Source: Haliclystus octoradiatus
Taxonomy: Eukaryota > Cnidaria > Staurozoa > Stauromedusae > Haliclystidae
Length of the DNA stretch: 64,000 nt
Reading direction: 5' to 3'
NCBI GenBank assembly: GCA_916610825.1
Contig: OU744452.1
Coordinates: forward strand, 2,453,543 to 2,517,542
Both the position numbers and the translations under genes were made by a program. The notes under the pieces were generated by a model, which was not told where the DNA came from, made no database searches, and saw nothing but the letters and a program-made list of their open reading frames with translations. Positions 529 to 40,926 of this stretch are shown here, piece by piece. Numbering within the stretch: the stretch's first letter is position 1; every line of letters starts with the position of its first letter.

Positions 529-31497
<30,969 letters not shown>

Positions 31498-32149
31498 TCC
31501 ACTTTAATATTTTGTAAATAATTATAACCATGTTGGATGAGAAGATACAGCTAGATAGAAGTAAATGTAAGGGTATTGCTTCGAAACGTATATGTAATTT
31601 ACAAGAATTAGCATGTTCGGTATAGTATTTTGTATAAAAGTAAATAAAATATAAAATGAGATTTGCAATTGACGTTTTCATTCTATAGTTGGATTGTACT
31701 TTTTTCTCCCATCAACTCATGGTTACGTAATATCATTGAGCCTATTCTATGATGCTAGGTAGTATCGTAGTACTAAGGGTTGATTTCTTTTTCATCATTT
31801 TCTTTTCGCGTAGACGGAAGTTCATCGCATCATGCAATGCGTGTAAACAATACCAAACAGAACGTCATCAAGCATTAATGGCTAGCTAAATGCTTGATTG
31901 ATGGCTGATTAATGGGTAGATAATATAATTTCATGACTACAGAAATTCGTACAGTAAAAATGACAAATTAACTTCAATGAAAGTAAAACATATCACATGG
32001 AAATTTCATGGCTAGGGCTTGGCTAGGGTACTCTTATAAAACGTTGGCCCAATTTATATTGTCGATTTAAAATCGCAATTTAGCTTCCAGAGAAAAATAA
32101 CTAATACCATCAAAGGGCCAGTCGACTAAAATTGACGACAGGCTATGAC
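31498..32149. other. POLR2B 3'UTR and intergenic sequence
   Basis: Holds the candidate polyadenylation signal and otherwise AT-rich sequence. No gene was recognised. Confidence 0.6.
31643..31648 (+). promoter_or_regulatory. candidate POLR2B polyadenylation signal
   Basis: AATAAA hexamer 146 bases after the stop codon of POLR2B, in AT-rich sequence. Position and motif fit a 3'UTR end; no transcript data are available. Confidence 0.5.
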
Positions 32150-32772
32150 CAGAGCCATCTATTTACAAGAGTTGGGACACGCTTTCATGTGCCGCTATCG
32201 TCTCCTATTGGACAGATGCCATTCACGTGATTTTTTGGACGCCATTTTCGTACTTTCGGCACCAGGGTTCTTGTTCTTTTGGCGCCAGGTTTCCTGTTTT
32301 AAGCGAAGCGCGCGGAAAAATACAACTTGTATCAGTGATAACAAACATAGGCTATTAAATTATTAATTGTTGTGTTAATAGGCACAATAGTAATCGAAAT
32401 TAAAGTATTGTTTACTATTCCAACTGGGGACAAGAATTAGAAAAAGTTGTCTTTGACTGCAAAGAATAAGCGCAAGAGAGTAAGAGATGTAGTCCATACT
32501 CCACAAACTCCTTGTCCATTTAGCAATTCCAATAGCATAGCATTGATCTGATTTACTTTCGAGCAACATGCTGATGAGATCGATAACAAAGTAATAAAGT
32601 ATACATTGAAGTAAATTTTATTCTTATTTTGAGAGTCCAGCAAATGAATATGGAGAAAGACAACTAATAGATGGTTATATTACTCTTGTATCATGTTAAA
32701 CGATTGGTCATCGCTGAATCGCATTCTGCAAATCCGAAATTCTACTACGCATGCTCAGAAAAAGTAATTTGA

Positions 32773-33048
32773 TTGGCTGATTTCTCAAAACAATGGAATG
32801 ACGCTTGGCAAAGCGTGCGTCTGAGACAAACTTTAACAACTAGTATCAATGCTCTTGAAGAACCATGTGAAGAAAATCAACCATCATCGCACATCATCCG
32901 TGAGCAGAAACGTCTTGCTGCTACCCTCGTCCGCAGCCGTTACGGTCATCCTGATCATTTCTCGCTGTTTTCTCAACTACAGGCATGGAGGTCAATTCCT
33001 GCTTGGAAATCTTGGATAACCATCCACAAAAATACTGCTGTTACATAA
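32773..33048 (+). other. 91-codon open frame in left palindrome arm, unrecognised
   Basis: Opens with ATGGCT-like context after a CAATCAAAT-type segment and reads MADFSKQWNDAWQSVRLRQ at its start. The right arm carries a related but diverged start on the minus strand at 40164 (60 codons, MAYLERQWQKRASG...). Codons are not obviously constrained and I recognise no domain. It may be a fossil exon or promoter captured by the element rather than a gene. Confidence 0.25.
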
Positions 33049-33719
33049 TATGGAAGGTCAGGATGTGAGTGAAGATACATTTAATATGTATCCAACTCCT
33101 GGAGTTTGAAGAATCACATTTTAATCGTCAATTTACCAATTTCATTCCTTCGACATGAATTCAGGTGTGGTCATTTCCTTCACGGAATAGGCTACATGAG
33201 ATCTGGCAAATTCATCGAAAATCATATTTAAATCAATCGTTATAACAGAAGAACGTCAGTAAACAGGTAAATAATGTTCTTATTTGTATCTTCATCGAAA
33301 TCTTAAAGTTATTAGATTTTTTTTAAATTTTATTTTGACCCATTCTTACTGATTCAGGTTTTGACCTCTACGCAGCAAAATTCACGGAATGCGATCTGAA
33401 AAAGTCAACAGAAACCATGTTCAAATCAATCGTTATAACAGATGATTGTACAGTATTTGTACTAATAATTACGTTTATATGGCGATTAGTTTTCATTTTA
33501 ATCCAATGCGCTTTACAATTACATAACTTTTCGATGTAATAAATAGATAACTTATATTTGTTGTCTGTGTTTTCTATATTAATTTAGATCCAGTTTAGCC
33601 GTCGTTGTGTTGACTGGGTCACAATGTCGTTTTGGTGAAGCCACCTATACGACAAATTCAATAAATCAGTTTACTGATATGTATGTTCATGTTTATAATA
33701 AAACTGAAACTCTTTTAAT

Positions 33720-36262
33720 GCAGCCTTGTGATAATTGTTTCGCATTATAGACTTCATGCAAAAGGGTGTAGTTCCCATTCTGACTTGCATGTGTATCGAT
33801 TTCATACGAAATAAAAGGTACCCATGGATAATTATTTGATATTTGTTAGGAAACTACACAAAGTTCTACATAATAAATTGTGAAATGGTATTCTCAATTA
33901 GAAAACTGAAATTCTTGTCATGCAGCTGAGTGATAATTGTTTCGCATTATATAGACTTCAGGCAAAAGGGTGTATTTCCCATTCTGACTTGCATGTGTAT
34001 CGATTTCATACGAAATAAAAGGTACCCATGGATAATTATTTGATATTTGTTAGGAAACTACACGAAGTTCTACATAATAAATTGTGAAATGGTATTCTCA
34101 ATTACAAAACTGAAATTCTTGTCATGCAGCTGAGTGATAATTGTTTCGCATTATATAGACTTCAGGCAAAAGGGTGTATTTCCCATTCTGACTTGCATGT
34201 GTATCGATTTCATACGAAATAAAAGGTACCCATGGATAATTATTTGATATTTGTTAGGAAACTACACGAAGTTCTACATAATAAATTGTGAAATGGTATT
34301 CTCAATTAGAAAACTGAAATTCTTGTCATGCAGCTGAGTGATAATTGTTTCGCATTATATAGACTTCAGGCAAAAGGGTGTATTTCATACTCTGACTTGC
34401 ATGTGTATCGATTTTATACGAAATAAAAGGTACCCATTGATAATTATTTGATATTTGTTAGGAAACTACACTAAGTTCTATATAATAAATTGTGAAATGG
34501 TATTCTCATTTAGAAAACTGAAATTCTTCTCATGCAGCCGAGTGATAATTGTTTCGCATTATAGACTTCAGACAAGAGGGTGTATTTCCCGCTCTGACTT
34601 GCATGTGTATCGATTTTATACGAAATAAAAGGTACCCATGGATAATTATTTGATATTTGTTAGGAAACTACACTAAGTTCTATATAATAAATTGTGAAAT
34701 GGTATTCTCATTTAGAAAACTGAAATTCTTCTCATGCAGCCGAGTGATAATTGTTTCGCATTATAGACTTCAGACAAAAGGGTGTATTTCATACTCTGAC
34801 TTGCATGTGTATCGATTTTAATAAGAAATAAAAGGTACCCATGGATAATTATTTGATATTTGTTAGGAAACTACACTAAGTTCTATATAATAAATTGTGA
34901 AATGGTATTCTCATTTAGAAAACTGAAATTCTTCTAATGCAGCTGAGTGATAAATGTTTCGCATTATAGACTTCAGGCAAAAGGGTGTATTTCCCATTCT
35001 GACTTGCATGTTTATCGATTTTATACGAAATAAAAGGTACCCATGGATAATTATTTGATATTTGTTAGGAAACTACACTAAGTTCTATATAATAAATTGT
35101 GAAATGGTATTCTCATTTAGAAAACTGAAATTCTTCTCATGCAGCTGAGTGATAATTGTTTCGCATTATAGACTTCAGACAAAAGGGTGTATTTCATACT
35201 CTGACTTGCATGTGTATCGATTTTAATAAGAAATAAAAGGTACCCATGGATAATTATTTAATATTTGTTAGGAAACTACACTAAGTTCTATATAATAAAT
35301 TGTGAAATGGTATTCTCCTTTAGAAAACTGAAATTCTTCTCATGCAGCTGAGTGATAATTGTTTCGCATTATATAGACTTCAGGCAAAAGGGTGTATTTC
35401 ATACTCTGACTTGCATGTGTATCGATTTTATACGAAATAAAAGGTACCAATGGATAATTATTTGATATTTGTTAGGAAATTACACTAAGTTCTATATAAT
35501 AAATTGTGAAATGGTATTCTCATTTAGAAAACTGAAATTCTTCTAATGCAGCTGAGTGATAAATGTTTCGCATTATAGACTTCAGGCAAAAGGGTGTATT
35601 TCCCATTCTGACTTGCATGTGTATCGATTTTATACGAAATAAAAGGTACCCATGGATAATTATTTGATATTTGTTAGGAAACTACACTAAGTTCTATATA
35701 ATAAATTGTGAAATGGTATTCTCATTTAGAAAACTGAAATTCTTCTCATGCAGCCGAGTGATAATTGTTTCGCATTATAGACTTCAGACAAAAGGGTGTA
35801 TTTCATTTTCTGACTTGCATGTGTATCGATTTTAATAAGAAATAAAAGGTACCCATGGATAATTATTTGATATTTGTTAGGAAACTACACTAAGTTCTAT
35901 ATAATAAATTGTGAAATGGTATTCTCATTTAGAAAACTGAAATTCTTCTCATGCAGCCGAGTGATAATTGTTTCGCATTATAGACTTCAGACAAAAGGGT
36001 GTATTTCATTTTCTGACTTGCATGTGTATCGATTTTAATAAGAAATAAAAGGTACCCATGGATAATTATTTGATATTTGTTAGGAAACTACACCAAGTTC
36101 TATATAATAAATTGTGAAATGGTATTCTTATTTAGAAAACTGAAATTCTTCTCATGCAGCCGAGTGATAAATGTTTCGCATTATAGACTTCAGGCAAACC
36201 GAGTGATAATTATTGTTTCGCATTATAGACTTCATGCAAAAGGGTGTATTTCCTATTGTATG
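33720..36262 (+). repeat. ~203-bp tandem array, 12 forward copies
   Basis: GGTACCCATGGATAATTATT recurs at 33817, 34021, 34225, 34429, 34631, 34834, 35036, 35239, 35443, 35645, 35848 and 36051, a period of 202-204 bases. Each unit also has a TTCGCATTATAGACTTCAGG segment and AAAAGGGTGTATTTC. Units near the outside share variants (CATACGAAAT, CACGAAGTTC) that differ from the inner ones (AATAAGAAAT, CACTAAGTTC). Confidence 0.97.
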
Positions 36263-36473
36263 ACCTATAATGTGTGATAGTGATGTGTTACATTGCGTAT
36301 GTTGTGCTTAGGGCTTTTTGAAATGTTATGTATTGAGACATCTAGTTCTATTGGTAGTATAGTAATGTGAAGTCATTTAATATGTGTATGGTGTATCGTG
36401 GATGTCATGCTGCAGGCTATTTGTAATGTTAAGTACTGAGGCATTTAGCGCTATTGAATGATATACCACGTGT
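36263..36473. other. central spacer of the palindrome
   Basis: About 210 bases separate the two arrays and are not part of the 203-bp repeat. The spacer is itself a diverged direct repeat of ~105 bases: GGCTTTTTGAAATGTTATGT near 36312 against GGCTATTTGTAATGTTAAGT near 36415, each followed by an ATTGAGACAT/ACTGAGGCAT segment. Confidence 0.75.
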
Positions 36474-38860
36474 TGTAGTTTCCTAACAAATATCAAATAA
36501 TTATCCATGGGTACCTTTTATTTCTTATTAAAATCGATACACATGCAAGTCAGAAAATGAAATACACCCTTTTGTCTGAAGTCTATAATGCGAAACAATT
36601 ATCACTCGGCTGCATGAGAAGAATTTCAGTTTTCTAAATGAGAATACCATTTCACAATTTAATATATAAAACTTAGTGTAGTTTCCTAACAAATATCAAA
36701 TAATTATCCATGGTACCTTTTATTTCTTATTAAAATCGATACACATGCAAGTCAGAATGGGAAATACACCCTTTTGTCTGAAGTCTATAATGCGAAACAA
36801 TTATCACTCGGCTGCATGAGAAGAATTTCAGTTTTCTAAATGAGAATACCATTTCACAATTTATTATATAGAACTTAGTGTAGTTTCCTAACAAATATCA
36901 AATAATTATCCATGGGTACCTTTTATTTCGTATAAAATCGATACACATGCAAGTCAGAGTATGAAATACACCCTTTTGTCTGAAGTCTATAATGCGAAAC
37001 ATTTATCACTCGGCTGCATGACAAGAATTTCGGTTTTGTAATTGAGAATACCATTTCACAATTTATTACATAGAACTTAGTGTAGTTTTCTAACAAATAT
37101 CAAATAATTATCCATGGGTACCTTTTATTTCTTATTAAAATCGATACACATGCAAGTCAGAGTATGAAATACACCCTTTTGTCTGAAGTCGATAATGCGA
37201 AACAATTATCACTCGGCTGCATGAGAAGAATTTCAGTTTTCTAAATGAGAATACCATTTCATAATTTATTATAAAGAACTTAGTGTAGTTTCCTAACAAA
37301 TATCAAATAATTATCCATTGGTACCTTTTATTTCGTATAAAATCGATACACATGCAAGTCAGAATGGGAAATACACCCTTTTGTCTGAAGTCTATAATGC
37401 GAAACAATTATCACTCGGCTGCATGAGAAGAATTTCAGTTTTCTAAATGAGAATACCATTTCACAATTTATTATATAGAACTTAGTGTAGTTTCCTAACA
37501 AATATCAAATAATTATCCATGGGTACCTTTTATTTCTTATTAAAATCGATACACATGCAAGTCAGAAAATGAAATACACCCTTTTGTCTGAAGTCTATAA
37601 TGCGAAACGATTATCACTCGGCTGCATGAGAAGAATTTCAGTTTTCTTAATGAGAATACCATTTCACAATTTATTATATAGAACTTAGTGTAGTTTCCTA
37701 ACAAATAGCAAATAATTATCCATGGGTACCTTTTATTTCGTATAAAATCGATACACATGCAAGTCAGAGTATGAAATACACCCTTTTGCCTGAAGTCTAT
37801 ATAATGCAAAACAATTATCACTCAGCTGCATGAGAAGAATTTCAGTTTTCTAAAGGAGAATACCATTTCACAATTTATTATATAGAACTTAGTGTAGTTT
37901 CCTAACAAATATTAAATAATTATCCATGGGTACCTTTTATTTCTTATTAAAATCGATACACATGCAAGTCAGAGTATGAAATACACCCTTTTGTCTGAAG
38001 TCTATAATGCGAAACAATTATCACTCAGCTGCATGAGAAGAATTTCAGTTTTCTAAATGAGAATACCATTTCACAATTTATTATATAGAACTTAGTGTAG
38101 TTTCCTAACAAATATCAAATAATTATCCATGGGTACCTTTTATTTCGTATAAAATCGATACACATGCAAGTCAGAATGGGAAATACACCCTTTTGCCTGA
38201 AGTCTATAATGCGAAACATTTATCACTCAGCTGCATTAGAAGAATTTCAATTTTCTAAAGGAGAATACCATTTCACAATTTATTATATAGAACTTAGTGT
38301 AGTTTCCTAACAAATATCAAATAATTATCCATGGGTACCTTTTATTTCTTATTAAAATCGATACACATGCAAGTCAGAGTATGAAATACACCCTTTTGCC
38401 TGAAGTCTATATAATGCGAAACAATTATCACTCAGCTGCATGACAAGAATTTCAGTTTTCTAATTGAGAATACCATTTCACAATTTATTATGTAGAACTT
38501 CGTGTAGTTTCCTAACAAATATCAAATAATTATCCATTGGTACCTTTTATTTCGTATAAAATCGATACACATGCAAGTCAGAATGGGAAATACACCCTTT
38601 TGCCTGAAGTCTATATAATGCGAAACAATTATCACTCAGCTGCATGACAAGAATTCCAGTTTTCTAATTGAGAATACCATTTCACAATTTATTATGTAGA
38701 ACTTCGTGTAGTTTCCTAACAAATATCAAATAATTATCCATGGGTACCTTTTATTTCGTATGAAATCGATACACATGCAAGTCAGAATGGGAACTACACC
38801 CTTTTGCCTGAAGTCTATAATGCGAAACAATTATCACAAGGCTGCATTAAAAGAGTTTCA
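36474..38860 (-). repeat. ~203-bp tandem array, 12 inverted copies
   Basis: The inverse phrase AATAATTATCCATGGGTACC (with small variants) occurs 12 times from about 36507 to 38740. Inner copies carry the TTATTAAAATCG variant and outer ones CGTATGAAATCG, mirroring the order of variants in the forward array. Confidence 0.97.
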
Positions 38861-39139
38861 GTTTTTATTATAAACATGAACATACATATTAGTAAACTGA
38901 TTTATTGAATTTGTCGTATAGGTGGCTTCACCAAAACGACATTGTGACCCAGTCAACACAACGACGGCTAAACTGGATCTAAATTAATATAGAAAACACA
39001 GAAATCAAATATAAGTTATCTATTTATTACATCGAAAAGTTATGTAATTGTAAAGCGCATTGGATTAAAATGAAAACTAATCGCCATATAAACGTAATTA
39101 TTAGTACAAATACTGTACGATCATCGGTTATAACGATTG

Positions 39140-39800
39140 ATTTGAACATGGATTACTGACGTTCTTCTGTTATAACGATTGATTTAAATATGATTTTCGA
39201 TGAATTTGTCAGATCGCATTCCGTGAAGTTTGCCGCGTAGAAGTCAAAACCTGAATCAGTAAGAATGGGTCAAAATAAAATTTTAAAAAAATCTAATAAC
39301 TTTAAGATTTCTATGAAGATACAAATAAGAACATTATTTACCTGTTTACTGACGTTTTTCTGTTATAACGATTGATTTAAATATGATTTTCGATGAATTT
39401 GTCAGATCGCATTCCGTGAAGTTTGCCGCGTAGAGGTCAAAACCTGAATCAGTAAGAATGGGTCAACATAAAATTTAAAAAAAATCTAATAACTTTAAGA
39501 TTTCGATGAAGATACAAATAAGAACATTATTTACCTGTTTACTGACGTTCTTCTGTTATAACGATTGATTTAAATATGATTTTCGATGAATTTGTCAGAT
39601 CGCATTCCGTGAAGTTTGCCGCGTAGAGGTCAAAACCTGAATCAGTAAGAATGGGTCAAAATAAAATTTTAAAAATATCTAATAACTTTAAGATTTCGAT
39701 GAAGATACAAATAAGAACAGTATTTACCTGTTTACTGACGTTCTTCTATTATAACGATTGATTTAAACCTGATTTTCGATGAATTTGTCAGATCGCACGT
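39140..39800. repeat. ~190-bp subrepeat in right arm, 4 copies (about 2 in left arm)
   Basis: TATAACGATTGATTTAAATA recurs at about 39168, 39363, 39556 and 39750 (last with a variant). Each is followed by TTTTCGATGAATTTGTCAGA and GTCAAAACCTGAATCAGTAA. The left arm has the inverse with about two copies at 33170-33440, so the arms are unequal here. Confidence 0.85.
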
Positions 39801-40283
39801 ATTCCATGAAGTGAAATGACCACACCTGAATTTGTGTTGAAGGAATGAAATTGGTAAATTGAAGATTAAAATGTGATTCTTCAAACTCCAGGAGTTGGAT
39901 ACATATTAAATGTATCTTCACTAACATCTTGACGTTCCATATTATGTAACCGCCGTGTTTTGTTGATGATTATCGAAGCTTTTAGAGTAGAACTGATGTC
40001 TGTCCACGTGGTTGAGAAAAGAAGAAACCAGAAAGAACCGTAACAGCTACGGACAAGTTAATATTCAAAGCGTCGAAGGACGCGATACTTGAAATAATTT
40101 TGTTAGCATTTGCGCTGTCTGCTCCTGACGCACGCTTCTGCCATTGTCTTTCAAGATAAGCCAATCAAATTAGGTTATTTCATGATGACGTAACTTTTTC
40201 TGGACATGCGTAGAAGGATTTCGGATTTGCAGAATGCGCTTCAGCGCTCACCGTGTCCCAACTCTTGTAAATAGATGGCTCTG

Positions 40284-40926
40284 GCTATGACAGTGTGGGA
40301 ATAATCAACACATTTCAATTTACTCAGATGTTATTTTCTATTTTCGCATACCGGTACGTTGACACTATGGTTTCAGAAACAAATCTTGGGCTCATACGCT
40401 TGTTATCAATCGTCAAGATAAAATATTACTCAATAAAAAAAACATAACTGGAGGCAAAAAAAAATTGATATTCATCATAATTATAAATATACATTAATGA
40501 AAATCATAATACACCTAATCCAAATGATCATTAATAACGTTGCCTACATTCTAGCTACCTAAATTCAATACATAGGGGTCTAACTGGATTATAATTATGA
40601 AATACTAAGTTGACGGTATATAGATATAAGGAGATAAATTAAAATTGTAATAGTATAATAAAGTATTGCTCATACCAAACATGGTTACCAATCACAGATT
40701 GGAATGTACCGGAACAGTCATATTGAGAAACTAATATATTCTAATAGACTATTCCCAATTCAAACTGGATGTCACACTTCAGTATTGCTTAAACTTGAAG
40801 CTCATTTTACTGTCCATTTGTGACCTTGATTTGTGAAATGAGAATTGGAAAATATCACCACTTAAACTTAACATTCGCAATACTGCAACAACCATTTACT
40901 AAAATTATTCTGTACCACAAATGCTT
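40284..40926. other. intergenic sequence downstream of ARL1
   Basis: AT-rich and non-coding. It is the expected ARL1 3'UTR region on the minus strand, but no canonical AATAAA was found on that strand. Confidence 0.5.

Follow-up and report, generated by a model that had tools for sequence, protein, structure and literature searches.

Four described transposons come closest to the element reported here; the comparison draws on excerpts of the cited papers. Rehavkus DNA transposons, of which Rehavkus-1_TC of Tribolium is our compared example (PMC10218199), have 9-bp target duplications, a PHD finger and a minisatellite (PMC6446971). Tetris of Drosophila virilis is a foldback element whose terminal inverted repeat (TIR) consists of a flanking domain, tandem repeats of about 220 bp and an inner domain; three complete copies have duplications of 8–9 bp, and according to the excerpted report a transposase-bearing element was not found (PMC4079207). 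Tm1 of root-knot nematodes has foldback-like composite TIRs with unlike terminal motifs and mostly 9-bp duplications; its repeats are about 14 bp long, and genes for a Phantom-type Mutator transposase occur in some members (PMC3169594). Galileo, a P-superfamily transposon of Drosophila, has long, internally repetitive TIRs of variable length, 7-bp duplications and a P transposase within the family (PMC3573991). Here we analyze a stretch of 64,000 nucleotides from the stauromedusa Haliclystus octoradiatus (contig OU744452.1, positions 2,453,543 to 2,517,542; hereafter the window), in which positions 32150–40283 form a unit of 8.1 kb. This unit is very probably a foldback transposon nested in a miniature inverted-repeat transposable element (MITE) of the P superfamily.

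The inner transposon represents a family of a known structural class. It shares with Tetris the layout of the TIR, the size of the duplication and the missing transposase-bearing element; Tetris repeats, however, also occur in long free arrays, whereas none of the foldback repeats was found outside the family loci. With Rehavkus it has in common the 9-bp duplications and the minisatellite, and the same genome holds a frame of a Mutator-like element (MULE) with a near-cut-off PHD match adjoining a 137-bp array; it differs in having no transposase, in stacking two repeats per arm and in ends that match no MULE placed. The composite TIRs, unlike termini and 9-bp duplications recall Tm1, whose repeats are far shorter, and the long repetitive TIRs of varying length recall Galileo, from which it is set apart by duplication size and by the transposase within the Galileo family. 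Together the four systems cover most structural features of the foldback; two stacked repeat classes per arm were not seen in the excerpted descriptions of any of them.

Both ends of the 8.1-kb unit match as 32-bp inverted sequences, that is, a CAGAG-type TIR of 31 bp plus one base, and the unit is flanked by the 8-bp duplication GCTATGAC at 32142–32149 and 40284–40291. The forward strand of the 64 kb contains this 8-mer three times; the reverse complement is absent from it. The inverted ends and perfect 8-bp duplication reported in a preliminary description of the locus were thus confirmed, as were its 12 repeats per arm in opposite orientation: Tandem Repeats Finder (TRF) recovered a 202-bp unit in 12.3 copies at 33700–36198 and in 11.8 copies at 36474–38865, and BLAST placed these two arrays of the ~203-bp repeat in inverted orientation at 96% identity. 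The palindrome noted there holds for the arms, whose longest inverted match joins 33409–36108 to 36458–39158 at 96.1%, with an additional match at 90% from 33007–33455 to 39540–39982. The arms are, however, not plain mirrors to their ends: the outermost ~300 bp are unlike except for about 60 terminal bases and a second match of about 30 bp. In the window copy, just one of the arms carries an expansion of a second repeat, 193 bp long. This anatomy supports the proposed foldback-style transposon with long inverted repeats made of tandem subrepeats, and the unit comprises the following parts.

32142–32149, no strand: left 8-bp target duplication GCTATGAC of the outer P-type MITE.
32150–32705, forward strand: outer P-superfamily MITE, left part, beginning with its 31-bp TIR.
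32706–40252, forward strand: inner foldback transposon, 7547 bp, A end first.
32706–33006, forward strand: A end GGTCATCGCTGAATC..., about 300 bp, 98.7–99.7% identity among five copies.
33007–33200, forward strand: arm segment common to both arms, A-side and B-side types 90–92% alike.
33455–33699, forward strand: inner arm segment, 245 bp, 98.4–100% identity between arms and copies.
33700–36198, forward strand: A-arm array, 12.3 copies of the ~203-bp repeat.
36241–36473, forward strand: single central spacer, 233 bp.
36474–38865, reverse strand: B-arm inverted array, 11.8 copies of the ~203-bp repeat.
39153–39797, reverse relative to the A arm: B-arm outer repeat of 193 bp, 3.3 copies by TRF.
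39983–40252, forward strand: B end, reverse complement GGTGAGCGCTGAAGC..., about 270 bp.
40253–40283, forward strand: right 31-bp TIR, sole remnant of the right side of the outer MITE.
40284–40291, no strand: right 8-bp target duplication GCTATGAC of the outer MITE.

Read inwards, the foldback thus runs from the A end through the shared segment, the 193-bp repeats, the 245-bp segment and the 203-bp repeats to the 233-bp spacer, beyond which the order is repeated inverted and closes with the B end. Its termini are GGTCATCGCTGAA / GGTGAGCGCTGAA, ends of the GGTSAKCGCTGAA type; the repeats showed no similarity to these ends at an E value of 1.

When the last 324 bases of the unit were searched against the genome, five other loci matched only to base 293 or 294, where the TIR begins (C10, two at C5, C6 at 95%, and C7 from base 96 only). 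Besides the window copy, complete foldbacks of 6374 bp (C10), 9073 and 11772 bp (both C5) and 4984 bp (C7) were identified, all having GGTCATCGCTGAATC as A end and GGTGAGCGCTGAAGC as B end, together with three fragments at C6, C4 and C14. A search with the end pattern returned 13 places, to which each of the five copies contributes both of its ends and C6, C14 and C4 one end each (control 0); a second end pattern returned 16, four of them with three mismatches outside the family loci (control 2). Across the five copies, 4984–11772 bp in length, long inverted repeats with tandem subrepeats are accompanied by target duplications at independent insertions: exact, abutting 9-bp duplications in three (ATACTAAAT, GGAGAAGAT and ATTCCAGCC), a repeated 11-bp word, GTGGGGCAATG, with 8 extra bases at one end in the 11772-bp copy, and none of 9 bp in the window copy. 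That the 9-bp duplication is clean in only three of five copies counts against the explanation given below. The A ends are 98.7–99.7% alike, but parts of the C6 and C4 fragments are only 80–97% like the window copy, which suggests an old family with a recent burst. In the 11772-bp copy (C5:19277471-19289245, L015/L016), 1762 bp of other sequence lie within the 193-bp array. Other tandem arrays adjoin the C4 fragment, and a different foldback was considered there; Gypsy-like frames and a 171-bp direct repeat, its copies 97.7% identical and some 7.4 kb from each other, point instead, without settling it, to a retroelement insertion.

The outer element is common. Genome-wide, 1240 exact occurrences of the 31-bp TIR were counted (reversed control 0), and with 32120–32320 as query all 39 matches besides the window, among the best 40 of 1751 candidates, start at query bases 24–31, the unit itself starting at base 31. 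Sources for the MITE numbered 29: eight search loci (one of them the unit itself), 20 further stretches and the window. Paired elements with ends within 1.2 kb, 668–694 bp long, were present in 24 and absent from five (L001, L040, L041, L045 and L054). The 24 elements are flanked by exact 8-bp duplications in 20 cases, by duplications with one mismatch in three and with four mismatches in one; the duplication consensus (n = 23) reads G-T-T-A-N-A-A-C, with A7 in 15/23, C8 in 15/23 and T2 in 13/23. One intact second copy lies in the window itself (20361–21042, forward strand, 682 bp) with TATACAAG on both sides. What the unit retains of its MITE amounts to 556 + 31 bp, and the part at 32150–32705 is 99.3% identical to copy L004 over 540 bp and 99.4% to L048 over 531 bp. 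A size class of about 280 bp is also frequent among the TIRs listed, as C1 pairs about 282 bp apart (e.g., C1:240625-240906).

The superfamily of the MITE was read from one TIR-bounded relative, in part. Among the TIRs listed, two inverted ones delimit 6533 bp on C1 (9350174-9356706), one end of which aligns to the MITE consensus at 93.6% over 171 bp and the other at 92.6% over 54 bp. Its middle piece of 1601 bases contains two open frames, the first of which matches the Pfam TNP-like GBD domain at 1.5e-8, above cut-off, and the P transposase of PDB entry 6p5a at 9.5e-9; a genome search with PF21788 finds the stretch as well. A P transposase domain thus lies between TIRs like those of the outer MITE, which places the MITE in the P superfamily. 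Three observations on the relative count against this assignment: the second frame matches TNP-like RNaseH_C at 0.0013, below cut-off; its score of 3.2e-6 in the genome-wide search is modest; and the 8-mers flanking it, GTACCACC / GCTCCACC, are imperfect, differing at two of eight positions. P elements make 8-bp target duplications, and the MITE agrees, with at most one mismatch in 23 of 24 elements. At 31 bp its TIR is as long as in the canonical P elements of the excerpted description (PMC7313671); the TIR sequence is its own, and the comparison extends to one long relative read in part. A further 6665 bp between P-type TIRs (C1:12214455-12221119) are flanked by a perfect 8-bp duplication, TTCCATAA, and gave no match to the P domain; they may be another insertion into the MITE.

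Only one of six B ends, that of the window, is joined to a CAGAG TIR, and the MITE consensus has no match in the seven stretches read that surround the remaining foldbacks, four of them complete copies and three the fragments at C6, C4 and C14. The composite is therefore best explained by nesting, and the single transposable unit originally postulated was not upheld. As the anatomy shows, a P-superfamily MITE of about 690 bp inserted first and created the duplication GCTATGAC. A non-coding foldback, ending in GGTCATCGCTGAA / GGTGAGCGCTGAA and normally making 9-bp duplications, then very probably entered the MITE. About 115 bp of adjoining MITE and the foldback's own duplication are gone; they would have been deleted during or after insertion. 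The distance from AAACGAT to GTGTCCC is 115 or 116 bp in four of the five closest MITE copies measured, these four having an intact right side (in the fifth, L048, the left junction word AAACGAT is absent), and the window is without these bases. As the foldback stands in their place and no 9-bp duplication is present, it very probably entered the MITE with loss of adjoining sequence. In Galileo, a copy whose duplications do not match and whose TIRs diverge is interpreted as chimeric (PMC3573991). For the composite described here, recombination with a distant copy is unlikely because the same GCTATGAC stands on both sides.

No transposase was found in the five complete foldback copies, whose longest stop-to-stop frames reach only 81–100 codons. 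The foldback would be mobilized in trans by a transposase recognizing its ends, and we lean slightly towards an enzyme of the Mutator/Rehavkus kind, since the 9-bp duplications occur together with satellite-bearing MULEs in the same genome. The duplications of three of the five copies fall within the 8–11 bp of Mutator and equal the 9 bp of Rehavkus, and like Rehavkus the element contains a minisatellite. The MULE domain has 85 genome matches, two of them in a 1435-codon frame (read at C10, L063) in which ZSWIM, MULE and SWIM score above their cut-offs and PHD (just) and C48 protease (Ulp1) below. Adjoining this frame is a 137-bp tandem array that covers 2.7 kb at C10; at C5 its length exceeds 8.5 kb. 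Several results speak against such a partner: no MULE-bearing element was found at either foldback end pattern with three mismatches allowed, so that a partner would have to have less similar ends; the MULE ends placed by copy comparison (TAAWCGCTGTGAC... and GGGAGTGCTTATTCG...) are unlike those of the foldback; and no 9-bp duplication was found for the end TAAWCGCTGTGAC of the 1435-codon family. The satellite-bearing MULEs are candidates of the right kind, no more. These Rehavkus-like loci lie at C5:28417500-28433500 (L062, L068) and C10:16069200-16084199 (L069, L063), and, to the extent that the C5 array was read, a foldback copy begins about 6 kb past it. The three foldback fragments have larger frames nearby, among them one of 519 codons in L018, which were considered as foldback genes and set aside; they are retroelement-like by eye, and the frame in L020 is a reverse transcriptase.

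Another possible source is a P enzyme, and the foldback itself might then be a P-superfamily element like Galileo, using the abundant P transposases of the genome. The P transposase domain is indeed common (114 genome matches), and Galileo has foldback-like TIRs with an internal tandem repeat of about 210 bp in some copies, according to the excerpted account (PMC3573991). Yet the foldback duplications are of 9 bp in three of five copies, outside the 7–8 bp of the P superfamily (7 in Galileo, 8 in the local P MITE), its ends begin with GGT and not CAGAG, and no P transposase match lies at places with foldback ends; we consider this reading unlikely. Less probable still is that the composite became one mobile unit, moved here as a whole of 8.1 kb by a P transposase, with GCTATGAC stemming from that jump. 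Both 31-bp TIRs and the perfect 8-bp duplication are intact, as this would require, but there is a single composite among six B ends and none in the other seven stretches read, and insertion of the MITE first and the foldback second already explains the observations.

The hAT-related foldback unit first proposed retains very little credibility. An 8-bp duplication and a CAGAG terminus would both fit hAT, and the genome is rich in hAT domains (335 candidates, 150 of them scored). However, the readable stretch with the same TIRs encodes a P transposase, and the ends of the inner part are its own, as are its 9-bp duplications. The one relative read contains none of the 150 scored hAT matches. A 719-codon hAT family was considered as partner of the MITE; the 901 bases read have no CAGAG end, but as the end of that element may lie elsewhere, this weighs neither way. 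Assembling a large palindrome of tandem repeats is difficult, and exact repeat numbers could be misassembled, but an artefact mirroring a satellite array is very unlikely because the palindrome recurs at four other loci with other lengths and flanks (shortened at C7), the five loci differing in arm length, having A and B ends unlike each other and, in three, exact duplications.

Both repeats travel with the foldback. The 203-bp repeat has 92 genome matches, all within six foldback loci; the 193-bp repeat likewise has 92, all within eight, namely the same six, the C4 fragment and C14, where three short matches lie 16.4 kb from the end fragment. Free arrays of either repeat outside foldback loci were not found in this search, in which very common words were skipped, and the suggestion that the element spreads satellite DNA was not borne out. 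Counted as matches of at least 90% of the query length, which undercounts arrays with longer or shorter units, the 193-bp units on the A/B arms number 1/3 in the window, 10/5 at C10, 6/12 in the 9073-bp and 10/8 in the 11772-bp copy at C5, and 3/7 at C7; the 203-bp units, in the same order, 12/11, 3/4, 8/6, 8/11 and 0/6. The spacer is flipped relative to the ends in the C10 copy, one of the four copies holding it, and lost at C7. Such states would arise if tandem repeats expand and contract and the arms recombine with each other, which could yield copies of 5.0–11.8 kb (the largest including the 1.76-kb insert) and flip the center.

Whether the arms, with two stacked satellite classes each, convert and invert each other in place is a tentative proposal that we regard as rather doubtful. 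Several units of the window copy are best matched on the other arm, in order (A1-B1, A2/3-B2, A8-B5, A11-B7). Mean repeat identity is nevertheless equal within an arm, between arms and between copies (203-bp repeat 95.3–95.6%, 193-bp repeat 96.4–96.6%), and of 69 units of the 203-bp repeat, 35 have their nearest relative only in another copy and 12 only on the opposite arm within their own copy. This speaks against general arm-to-arm conversion or homogenization within copies, and since no copy-specific homogenization is seen it lowers the odds of in-place conversion and inversion a little. The spacer has 23 further, weaker genome matches at 70–89%. Seven such relatives are 76–84% alike over positions 36–233 (C6:14768616, C4:7351688, C5:10085447, C7:18943423, C7:18922180, C7:9062040 and C1:6385923), and several dispersed ones show a second overlapping match, which suggests an internal duplication. 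They are a possible lead to an autonomous partner.

Elsewhere in the window, exons of the gene for the RNA polymerase II subunit RPB2 lie on the forward strand at 18578–19045 and 30005–30577 (Pfam Rpb2 domains 4, 5 and 7), and the nested unit starts about 1.6 kb past the second of these frames. A tandem array of a 91-bp unit (10.6 copies, 96% matches) at 24341–25303 is separate from the unit.

What seemed an 8.1-kb hAT-like unit thus resolves into two known kinds of transposon, and nesting can mimic a new element with its own target duplication. With their near-identical A ends, the foldback copies let gain and loss of repeats and inversion of arms be read directly, and the satellite-bearing MULEs of the same genome can be tested as the source of their transposase. 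Possibly, an arm-converting foldback is served here by satellite-bearing Rehavkus-like MULEs; if conversion and inversion of the arms in place holds true, the family would be a natural system for hairpin-driven rearrangement of repeats.

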